Source: an uncultured bacterium (GTDB taxonomy: Bacteria; Bipolaricaulota; Bipolaricaulia; UBA7950; UBA9294). From it: DNA of 64,000 bases. Position 1 is the stretch's first letter, and every line of letters starts with the position of its first letter. The stretch lies in NCBI GenBank assembly GCA_903857865.1, contig CAIOGO010000004.1, forward strand, positions 1 through 64,000, given 5' to 3'. The notes under the pieces were generated by a model. That model did not search any database. It saw nothing but the letters and a program-made list of their open reading frames with translations, and had not been told where the DNA came from. A program made the translations under genes and the position numbers. Below, piece by piece: positions 1 to 2,148 of this stretch.

Positions 1-345
1 AGTCCACGAGTAGCTCGCCATCCCCGACGAGCCACCCGTCAACGCCAGTTGCTGGCCCACGCAGACCGGTCCGCCGTTCGTTGCGGTTGGGGTCGGCAGC
101 GCATTGACAACAACTGTCGTGGTTGCGGGCGCACTGCTTGTGCAGCCGCTCGAGTTTGTGACCGTGAGCGAGTACACGCCGGCCATCGACAAGGTCGCGC
201 TCGAAGACACGGTCGGGTTCTGCGCAGTTGACGTGAATCCATTGGGGCCAGTCCACGAGTAGCTCGCCATCCCCGACGGGCCACCCGTCAACGCCAGTTG
301 CTGGCCCACGCAGACCGGTCCGCCGTTCGTTGCGGTTGGGGTCGG
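1..345. repeat. 249-bp tandem coding repeat (83-residue Ig-like unit)
   Basis: Bases 1-96 and 250-345 are identical except position 30 (a) versus 279 (g), giving an exact 249-base (83-codon) period in frame with the surface protein. The repeat encodes an Ig-like module starting PTPTATNGGPVCVGQQ. Such identity between neighbouring modules points to recent duplication or gene conversion; further copies probably lie beyond the left edge. Confidence 0.9.
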
Positions 346-1371
346 CCGCGTGCCGACGGTCACGTTCTGTGAGCAGGAGGCCGAACAGCCGCCTGCGTTG
401 GCGACCGTCACGCCCAACTGAACGGTGGGTCCGTTCCCGGATGTCCACGTGATCTGGCGGGTACCTTGCCCGGCGGTGATCGTGCCTCCCACAATGGACC
501 AGACGTACGCGGCACCCGGGCCGGCATCCGCCACCGAAGCGAGGTTTCCGGTGCTTGCCGCGCACACGCCGGTTGGCGACGAGATGGCGCATGTCGGTAT
601 TCCGTAGACCGTCACGTAGCCGGCCTTCACCTCGGTGTCTGTCGTCCCCAGAGCATCCGTCACGGTCAGCCGGACAGTGTATGAACCCGCCTGCGCGTAC
701 GTGTAGCTGGGGTTCCTGGCTGTGCTGTCTACGGTTCCGTTCCCATCGAAGTCCCATGCGTACGCGTACGCCACCGTGTCCTTTCCGCCGGTCGTGAGGT
801 CAGTGAACTGCACGGTGAGGGGAGCGCATCCGCTCGTCGGCGTCCCCGTGAAATTGGCGTTAAGAGAGGCGTAGACAATGACGTTCGGGTAGTTGCCGAT
901 GCACTTCGACGGGGCGTTATAGGGGACACAGTCTCCAGTAGTACAGCCGGCATTGGCTGACCACTGCACGTAGATGTTCCGGATCTCCACGCTCTGGTTG
1001 CACGGCCAGGTGATCGTTCCCACCAGGAAATCACTCGCGCCACCATTCCAGTCCGTCGTGACCGTGCTTGCGAGATTCTGTTGCGTGAGAAGGTCGTTGA
1101 CCCAGACGTCGACGACCAGCATCACGCAGTAATACGTTCGGTTGCCTTCGAGTCTTACGTACAGATCGGCTGTCTGGTTGCCTCCGACGCACGAGGCGAT
1201 ACTGCCAAGGTATACGCTGACTACTCTGACATCCTTCGCATCGCACCCGCTGATGCACCGCGGGTAGGTCTGTGCTGCGGCTTCGGGCGCGGGGAGTGCG
1301 AAGAAGAGCGACACGAGCAGGACTCCCACGAGGAGAGGTCCCCAACAACACTTGCGTACGATCGACACCAT
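1..1371 (-). CDS. Large secreted PKD / Ig-like repeat surface protein, partial (3' end beyond window)
   Basis: The frame is open from the ATG at 1371 to the window edge (457 codons, no stop). The N-terminus has a signal peptide: basic MVSIVRK, a hydrophobic core around residues 10-26 and an AEA-type cleavage site near residue 33. A Cys-containing beta-rich region follows, then a PKD domain (about residues 170-255, with the diagnostic WDFDGNGT and YTYAQAGSYTV segments), then Ig-like/SprB-type repeats beginning PTPTATNGGPVC. It is probably a cell-surface adhesin or matrix protein. A strong AGGAGGT lies 9 bases before this ATG. An in-frame ATG at 1515 with AGGAGG at 1521-1526 would add 48 residues before the signal peptide. 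The gene sits behind a riboswitch at 1531-1610, so its expression is probably set by a cyclic dinucleotide. True length is unknown. Confidence 0.85.
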   Translation of the reverse strand, partial: MVSIVRKCCWGPLLVGVLLVSLFFALPAPEAAAQTYPRCISGCDAKDVRVVSVYLGSIASCVGGNQTADLYVRLEGNRTYYCVMLVVDVWVNDLLTQQNLASTVTTDWNGGASDFLVGTITWPCNQSVEIRNIYVQWSANAGCTTGDCVPYNAPSKCIGNYPNVIVYASLNANFTGTPTSGCAPLTVQFTDLTTGGKDTVAYAYAWDFDGNGTVDSTARNPSYTYAQAGSYTVRLTVTDALGTTDTEVKAGYVTVYGIPTCAISSPTGVCAASTGNLASVADAGPGAAYVWSIVGGTITAGQGTRQITWTSGNGPTVQLGVTVANAGGCSASCSQNVTVGTRPTPTATNGGPVCVGQQLALTGGPSGMASYSWTGPNGFTSTAQNPTVSSSATLSMAGVYSLTVTNSSGCTSSAPATTTVVVNALPTPTATNGGPVCVGQQLALTGGSSGMASYSWT

Positions 1372-1519
1372 GCGACCCCCACCTCCTTGGGAAGCAGCCA
1401 TCGCCAGAGGCGAACGGGAAGACTCAGAGAGACAAGCCGGTGAGATCACGGTTCGGAAAAGAGAACGCCACACCCCTCGCTCTTCACCACCGGGTCGCCT
1501 CATGGCGATAGCCATGTCT

Positions 1520-1534
1520 GCCTCCTATTGAGGC
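1520..1534 (-). promoter_or_regulatory. Ribosome-binding-site sequestering hairpin (expression platform of riboswitch 1)
   Basis: On the minus strand GCCTC (1530-1534) can pair with GAGGC (1520-1524), hiding the AGGAGG used by the ATG at 1515. The same GCC is the 3' strand of the aptamer closing stem, so the two pairings exclude each other. Ligand binding would therefore free the site and switch translation on. This is structural inference from base pairing only. Confidence 0.5.
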
Positions 1535-1610
1535 TGGCAGCCCAGCGTCCTACATGAGGTCTGTGGCTTTGCGTCCTGCCCTCGCGGGCAGTTTGCCCTT
1601 TTCAGCCGGT
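1531..1610 (-). promoter_or_regulatory. Cyclic di-GMP-I (GEMM-I) riboswitch 1, G20 type
   Basis: The minus strand shows the GEMM-I core: AAAAGGGCAAAC, then the hairpin CTGCCC-GCGA-GGGCAG with a GNRA tetraloop, then GACGCAAAGCC, a second arm, and a closing stem GGCTG (1603-1607) with CAGCC (1532-1536). With Vibrio Vc2 numbering, position 20 is G (complement of 1597) and C46-A47 are present, as expected for c-di-GMP recognition. The aptamer begins 10 bases after the stop of the upstream RHH/MshEN gene, with no promoter seen in between, so it is read as part of the same transcript and controls the PKD surface protein. Confidence 0.88.
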
Positions 1611-1619
1611 CTTTCTGCG

Positions 1620-1949
1620 CTACGCAGACTCCGACTTGCGTCCGCGGGTCTGAATCAACAGTGCGCGCTCGAGGGCCTCGGGGGGAACCAACTGCTCTTC
1701 CAGCAGTATATCGCCGAGAAGCTTCTGCGTGAACTTCGTCTGCTGCAGCTCCAGTCCCCTAGCCAGGTCGGCGTGCGTCATCACTCCAAGGTCGACGAGG
1801 ATCTCGCCGAGGCGCTTCTCGCACTCGAAGTGCTGCTCGAGGATCGAGAGGATGACGCTGCTTCGGCTCTTGCGTTCCCTCTTCCCCTTGGCATCCACCT
1901 GTTTGATGAGGTATGCATCCTCATCGCTGTAGTAGATTGTCGTCTGCAT
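1620..1949 (-). CDS. Ribbon-helix-helix + MshEN-like domain protein under riboswitch control
   Basis: 109 residues. Residues 1-43 look like a ribbon-helix-helix (CopG/Arc type) DNA-binding fold: a short beta strand TTIYY followed by two helices with SRSSVILSILEQHF. Residues about 46-103 form two MshEN-like repeats: the first, RLGEILVDLGVMTHADLA..LELQ, fits the c-di-GMP-binding pattern RLGxxLxxxGxxxxxxLxxxLxxQ; the second (LLGDILLEEQLV..ALERALLIQ) is degenerate. MshEN is known as the N-terminal c-di-GMP sensor of type II secretion/pilus ATPases; here it stands alone with a DNA-binding head. The inferred role is a cyclic-dinucleotide-responsive regulator. The gene has its own riboswitch and terminator upstream and is followed directly by a second riboswitch. 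Confidence 0.8.
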   Translation of the reverse strand: MQTTIYYSDEDAYLIKQVDAKGKRERKSRSSVILSILEQHFECEKRLGEILVDLGVMTHADLARGLELQQTKFTQKLLGDILLEEQLVPPEALERALLIQTRGRKSESA

Positions 1950-1977: not shown

Positions 1978-2016
1978 AAAACGAAAAGCCGGGTTCCAGT
2001 CTCCTGGTAACCCGGC
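1978..2016 (-). terminator. Rho-independent terminator, expression platform of riboswitch 2
   Basis: On the minus strand GCCGGGTT (2009-2016) pairs with AACCCGGC (1988-1995) around an inner CCAG/CTGG stem, followed by the T-rich run TTTTCGTTTT (1978-1987). The 5' arm of this hairpin contains the GGGTTA of the riboswitch closing stem, so aptamer formation and termination compete. Ligand binding should relieve termination (ON switch). Confidence 0.85.
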
Positions 2017-2105
2017 CACCTCACGACTCCCACACAGACCTGGGTCATGAGGCCCGTAGCTTTGCGCCCCCACCTCACGGTAGGTTTGCTCTTTTCAGGC
2101 TATCG
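2005..2105 (-). promoter_or_regulatory. GEMM-I riboswitch 2, A20 variant (possible cGAMP sensor)
   Basis: On the minus strand: TAGCCTGAAAAGAGCAAACC, hairpin CCTACC-GTGA-GGTGGG (GNRA loop), GCGCAAAGCTACGGG, a second arm, and GGCCGGGTTACC at the 3' end. The closing stem can be TAGCC with GGTTA. Aligned to Vibrio Vc2, G19 and G21 are kept but position 20 is A (complement of 2090), while C46, A47 and C92 are retained. A20 is the substitution associated with cyclic AMP-GMP recognition in Geobacter GEMM-Ib riboswitches. It starts about 8 bases after the predicted transcription start and overlaps a terminator. Confidence 0.88.
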
Positions 2106-2119
2106 AACTGCGTGGTTGC

Positions 2120-2148
2120 ACTATATCCGCCGTATATCCTGATGTCAA
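2120..2148 (-). promoter_or_regulatory. Sigma-70-type promoter of the riboswitch operon
   Basis: The minus strand has TTGACA (2148-2143), a 17-base spacer and TATAGT (2125-2120). Transcription would start near 2113, just before the A20 riboswitch. This is the best-scoring promoter by eye in the window and is divergent from mutS. Confidence 0.85.

Follow-up and report, generated by a model that had tools for sequence, protein, structure and literature searches.

The window, a 64,000-nucleotide stretch of DNA (contig C4), derives from a Candidatus Bipolaricaulota MAG (2.24 Mb, 91% complete), so placed by its nearest named relatives in MutS, and carries on its minus strand two riboswitches within one operon, divergent from mutS: an upstream leader switch (riboswitch 2, aptamer 2), situated directly downstream of the promoter, and an intercistronic switch (riboswitch 1, aptamer 1). 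The elements follow in the order promoter, riboswitch 2, terminator, a 109-aa ORF, riboswitch 1, a hairpin over the ribosome-binding site (RBS) and a secreted PKD-repeat protein (Table 1), and a family-wide conserved layout of promoter, leader aptamer with terminator, 109-aa ORF, second aptamer and secreted protein has been identified. A TTGACA element and a TATAAT-like box are found ∼57–66 nt before position 20 in 15/15 orthologous loci, the present one included. The secreted PKD protein has its start ATG at 1515, with an alternative start at 1371, and its reading frame runs off the window.

Table 1. Coordinates within the window of the operon's features, with the basis of each assignment.
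Feature	Position	Strand	Basis or remark
Secreted PKD/Ig-like repeat protein	1..1515	-	Translation; PKD_4 6.8e-15; signal-peptide-like N-terminus
Anti-RBS hairpin GCCTC-AATAG-GAGGC over Shine-Dalgarno AGGAGG (1526-1521)	1520..1534	-	Overlaps P1 3' strand of riboswitch 1
Riboswitch 1, intercistronic aptamer, c-di-GMP-I-GGC, G20 at 1597	1532..1606	-	RF03167, 64.1 bits (Rfam)
109-aa ORF, predicted N-terminal ribbon-helix-helix and C-terminal MshEN c-di-GMP-binding domain	1620..1949	-	NCBIfam, profile, AF2, Foldseek
Intrinsic terminator GGCCGGGTT-ACCAGGAGACTGG-AACCCGGC + TTTTCGTTTT	1978..2017	-	Overlaps riboswitch 2 3' strand; hairpin -24 kcal/mol
Riboswitch 2, leader aptamer, c-di-GMP-I class, A20	2003..2106	-	RF01051 at 2100-2003; P1 to ~2106 by folding
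A20, variable pocket base (T on + strand)	2090..2090	-	Base 5' of GCAAAC; sole non-G of 17 aligned aptamers
Sigma-70-type promoter TTGACA-N17-TATAGT	2120..2148	-	11/12 consensus matches

The two expression platforms have been characterised as computed predictions, in which an enforced aptamer fold is only a proxy for ligand. Pair probabilities of the leader terminator are 0.9–1.0 in the free RNA and 0 with the aptamer fold enforced; this terminator, though clear by folding, was not listed by a simple terminator scan, and a hairpin overlapping the 3' strand of the leader aptamer is also present in the orthologs. At riboswitch 1, folding places the RBS in a buried position in the free RNA and leaves it partly exposed with the aptamer enforced, the start codon of the secreted protein lying within a hairpin in both folded states; elements resembling the anti-RBS hairpin are again present in the orthologs. 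From these models, both switches are predicted to be ON switches, riboswitch 2 acting on transcription by antitermination and riboswitch 1 on translation.

The ORF between the switches

The product of the 109-aa ORF is likely a c-di-GMP-binding regulator, with DNA binding suggested by its N-terminal resemblance to ribbon–helix–helix (RHH) proteins. The C-terminal part matches the MshE-related c-di-GMP_motif family (NCBIfam accession: NF053729) at 44.3 bits against a cut-off of 38, and the family profile searched against the PDB recovers PilF (1.2e-18), PilB and MshE (5htl; 2e-5). The AF2 model (pLDDT 85, pTM 0.57) is matched by Foldseek to c-di-GMP-bound PilF-GSPIIB and MshE at ∼1.1 Å, with high probability and E-values above 0.05, and the N-terminal part to the RHH proteins CdbA, CopG, Arc and AmrZ with weak E-values; RHH_1 (Pfam accession: PF01402) is detected in only three of 19 family members (E 0.047). 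Judged against the MshEN pattern of two 24-residue motifs, RLGxx..Q, separated by a 5-residue spacer, motif I is complete except for a conservative Met at one hydrophobic position, and motif II is without the canonical Arg (Leu) and Gly (Gln/Glu) and is preceded by a spacer of 7. The RHH-MshEN ORF is conserved across the family and is usually flanked by c-di-GMP-I aptamers. A search for repeats near the promoter that could form an RHH operator reported none.

VcMshEN binds c-di-GMP at 0.5 µM and cGAMP at 330 µM (PMC5013675), a preference that supports c-di-GMP as the signal of the operon. The MshEN fusions listed in the same paper include no RHH domain, and no RHH-MshEN fusion was found in the limited set of papers searched. 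CdbA of Myxococcus xanthus is likewise a small RHH protein associated with c-di-GMP (PMC7156744), although CdbA binds c-di-GMP through RHH interfaces and without MshEN, whereas the 109-aa ORF has a separate MshEN domain. The RNA–protein–RNA c-di-GMP circuit suggested at this locus is unexpected, no description of one having been found in the literature searched.

Position 20 and the cyclic-dinucleotide enzymes

Numbering was anchored on the invariant GCAAAC, of which the first G is G21 and the preceding base corresponds to Vc2 position 20; on this basis the sequence-only reading of the locus, which had called A20 in riboswitch 2 and G20 in riboswitch 1, had both the bases and the Vc2 numbering right. 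The G20 of the c-di-GMP-I class is thus present in riboswitch 1 and replaced by A in riboswitch 2. Riboswitch 2 nevertheless aligns full-length with RF01051 (model positions 1–87) at 56.5 bits against a gathering score of 35, and because G20 is less conserved than A47 in c-di-GMP-I riboswitches (PMC9049102), A20 is no excluding feature for membership of this family. The remainder of the pocket is standard (G21–C46, A47, C92, G19), P2 is fully paired with compensation kept and a GUGA (GNRA) loop, and A47 and C92 are intact in riboswitch 1 as in riboswitch 2.

Seven GEMM-I aptamers occur in the genome, five with G20, one with C20 and one, riboswitch 2, with A20. One of the G20 aptamers (L006; contig C20, 164408-164499) reads GGCAGGCC in place of GGCAAACC in its degenerate core, departs from the standard in P3, and is possibly decayed or specific for another ligand. 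Tandem c-di-GMP-I pairs with a G20 aptamer followed by a C20 aptamer are found in three species of the same genus (L001 at contig C9, 40146-40236, of this genome; L215 in G001; L206 in G003), the gene downstream of the pair in this genome encoding a small secreted protein.

Homologues of the 109-aa ORF were identified in 41 of 60 relatives, and inspection of 16 loci found a leader aptamer in 15 (this one included) and an intercistronic aptamer in 15. Outside this genome, 16/16 orthologous leader aptamers (14 genomes, two of which, G001 and G002, belong to the same genus) have G20, and the intercistronic aptamers, at all 15 loci having one, have it too; in an alignment of 17 leader and intercistronic aptamers, column 20 is G in 16, the exception being riboswitch 2. 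Because all orthologs have G20, A20 at this locus is read as a private G-to-A change of the lineage or, less probably, as an assembly artefact. Across the phylum, strict core patterns run on 100 genomes gave 324 G20 matches versus 21 with A20, of which four (L047, L052, L054 and L060) were rejected on inspection as non-aptamers, leaving ∼17 real A20 aptamers in 11 genomes. Tandem c-di-GMP-I pairs with A20 in the first aptamer and G20 in the second occur in a sister genus (genus g3; L055, L056, L057, L058 and L063), where they are kept in four species without Hypr GGDEFs; A20 aptamers can therefore be maintained.

Hypr enzymes have Ser at the position of PleD Asp344 (PMC7288161). No Hypr GGDEF was found in the genome of riboswitch 2, the guanine-reading Asp (GHxxGD) being kept in 7/7 complete GGDEFs, and neither a SMODS (DncV-type) nor a DAC domain was detected in it; the Hypr signature was also absent from ten A20-bearing relatives, with Asp kept in 39/39 GGDEF domains examined. 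The search for a DncV- or Hypr-type synthase that the sequence-only reading had proposed as a check thus returned none, although a Hypr gene could be missing from a genome that is 91% complete. Since Hypr GGDEFs would be expected if A20 meant cGAMP, these results lend cGAMP recognition little support. The same genome encodes nine HD-GYP domains and no detected PilZ domain, and its c-di-GMP output may proceed mainly via riboswitches and MshEN proteins; two degenerate GGDEF domains without the GGDEF motif (L015 at contig C10, 203406; L016 at contig C20, 168081) are candidate receptors or pseudoenzymes.

Ligand of riboswitch 2 and the proposed circuit

Riboswitch 2 is probably a class-I c-di-GMP ON switch with a lineage-specific G20A change, modestly lower affinity and looser specificity, followed in the operon by a second c-di-GMP switch predicted to act on translation. 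With Vc2 of Vibrio cholerae (GEMM-I, RF01051/RF03167) it shares the three-helix aptamer, the GCAAAC/CGCAAAG core, A47, C92 and G21–C46, as well as the overlap of the aptamer 3' strand with the expression platform seen in Vc2-type c-di-GMP-I switches, and it differs in having A20 where Vc2 has G20. The cluster 3 variant of Desulfobacca acetoxidans has the same natural A20, is otherwise highly similar to nearby c-di-GMP-I aptamers of its own genome, and binds cGAMP markedly better, with c-di-GMP binding perhaps slightly weakened (PMC9481103); riboswitch 2 would, by analogy, be expected to accept both ligands. The partner switches in Desulfobacca sense adenosylcobalamin and binding was measured, whereas the partner here is a c-di-GMP-I aptamer across an ORF. 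As no known cGAMP maker was found, c-di-GMP is likely the physiological ligand of both switches, and if c-di-GMP alone is made, riboswitch 2 would continue to act as a c-di-GMP switch, its threshold perhaps raised. Of the two options raised by the sequence-only reading, one messenger acting with two affinities fits these observations better than two messengers, the difference in affinity itself being only a prediction. Against a c-di-GMP switch of this kind, A20 strongly marks a preference for cGAMP in Geobacter, the incomplete genome could lack a Hypr gene, cGAMP might be made by synthases outside the Hypr group, and Arg and Gly are lost from MshEN motif II.

That A20 reflects no functional tuning is unlikely; on this reading the aptamer would be drifting or partly broken, or the base would be a polymorphism among strains or a consensus error of the metagenome assembly. 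Its restriction to a single genome with G20 in all orthologs would be explained in this way, and another aptamer of the same genome, at contig C20, 164408, has the degenerate GGCAGGCC core, but the rest of riboswitch 2 is intact (P2 compensation, GNRA loop, A47, C92 and terminator overlap) and A20 is conserved in genus g3.

Retuning of riboswitch 2 to 3',3'-cGAMP, giving a two-messenger operon in which cGAMP controls the whole operon and c-di-GMP the secreted protein, is improbable. The link between A20 and cGAMP recognition made by the sequence-only reading is borne out by PMC6456294, where A20G turns a Geobacter cGAMP riboswitch into a c-di-GMP riboswitch, and PMC9481103 on the Desulfobacca A20 aptamer; A20G/G20A swaps in these sources shift ligand preference, and riboswitch 2 combines A20 with intact A47 and C92. 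The Geobacter GEMM-Ib riboswitches (Gs1761, Gmet_0970) share A20 and are also ON switches with terminators. However, the Gs1761 cGAMP aptamer (PDB accession: 4YAZ) has C15–G40 at the 21–46 pair (PMC6274999) and U13 at position 19 (PMC7288161), the mapping of Gs1761 to Vc2 numbering being that of the present analysis and C21–G46 being the feature of one structure, whereas riboswitch 2 retains the Vc2-like G21–C46 and G19. The Geobacter genome encodes a Hypr GGDEF (GacA), whereas Hypr GGDEF, SMODS and DAC domains were not found here; A20 at this locus is private to one MAG, and the MshEN protein under control would, by analogy, prefer c-di-GMP. The claim that two different second messengers act on the operon is not supported, in view of G20 in every ortholog leader, the lack of detected Hypr GGDEF, SMODS and DAC domains, the absence of C21–G46 and the MshEN domain encoded between the switches. 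It is highly improbable that riboswitch 2 is a genuine 3',3'-cGAMP switch in a phylum that lacks Hypr GGDEF, DncV-type and DAC enzymes; a cGAMP synthase of an unrecognised kind would then have to exist, and the operon would answer to two messengers, cGAMP gating transcription and c-di-GMP gating translation. Sensing of c-di-AMP is barely conceivable, as the Vc2 mutant that can bind c-di-AMP is the double mutant G20A/C92U (PMC7288161, PMC9049102), and this ligand was rejected on the unchanged C92 of riboswitch 2 and the lack of a detected DAC domain in the genome.

Under the preferred reading of riboswitch 2 as a c-di-GMP switch, ligand binding would, as sequence and folding suggest, hold its 3' strand out of the terminator, allowing transcription of the operon, the first gene product of which is likely the RHH-MshEN c-di-GMP-binding regulator; at high c-di-GMP, riboswitch 1 with its G20 would free the RBS of the secreted PKD-repeat protein. 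The most likely effect of G20A would be a modest drop in the c-di-GMP affinity of riboswitch 2 together with tolerance of 3',3'-cGAMP, and riboswitch 2 would then need more c-di-GMP than riboswitch 1. Tandem c-di-GMP-I riboswitches (347 doublets, PMC9481103) similarly place two class-I aptamers on one operon, whereas here an MshEN ORF lies between the aptamers and control is predicted to be split between transcription and then translation.

A cGAMP riboswitch cannot be recognised from A20 alone, as A20 occurs in this phylum, and is conserved in one genus, where no known cGAMP enzyme was found. Because the orthologs differ at position 20 and share the same platform, the operon offers a natural experiment on the tuning of a c-di-GMP switch by a single base of its pocket. 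Should the RHH-MshEN protein bind both DNA and c-di-GMP, a circuit with two RNA steps under c-di-GMP control would gain a transcription regulator that responds directly to c-di-GMP.
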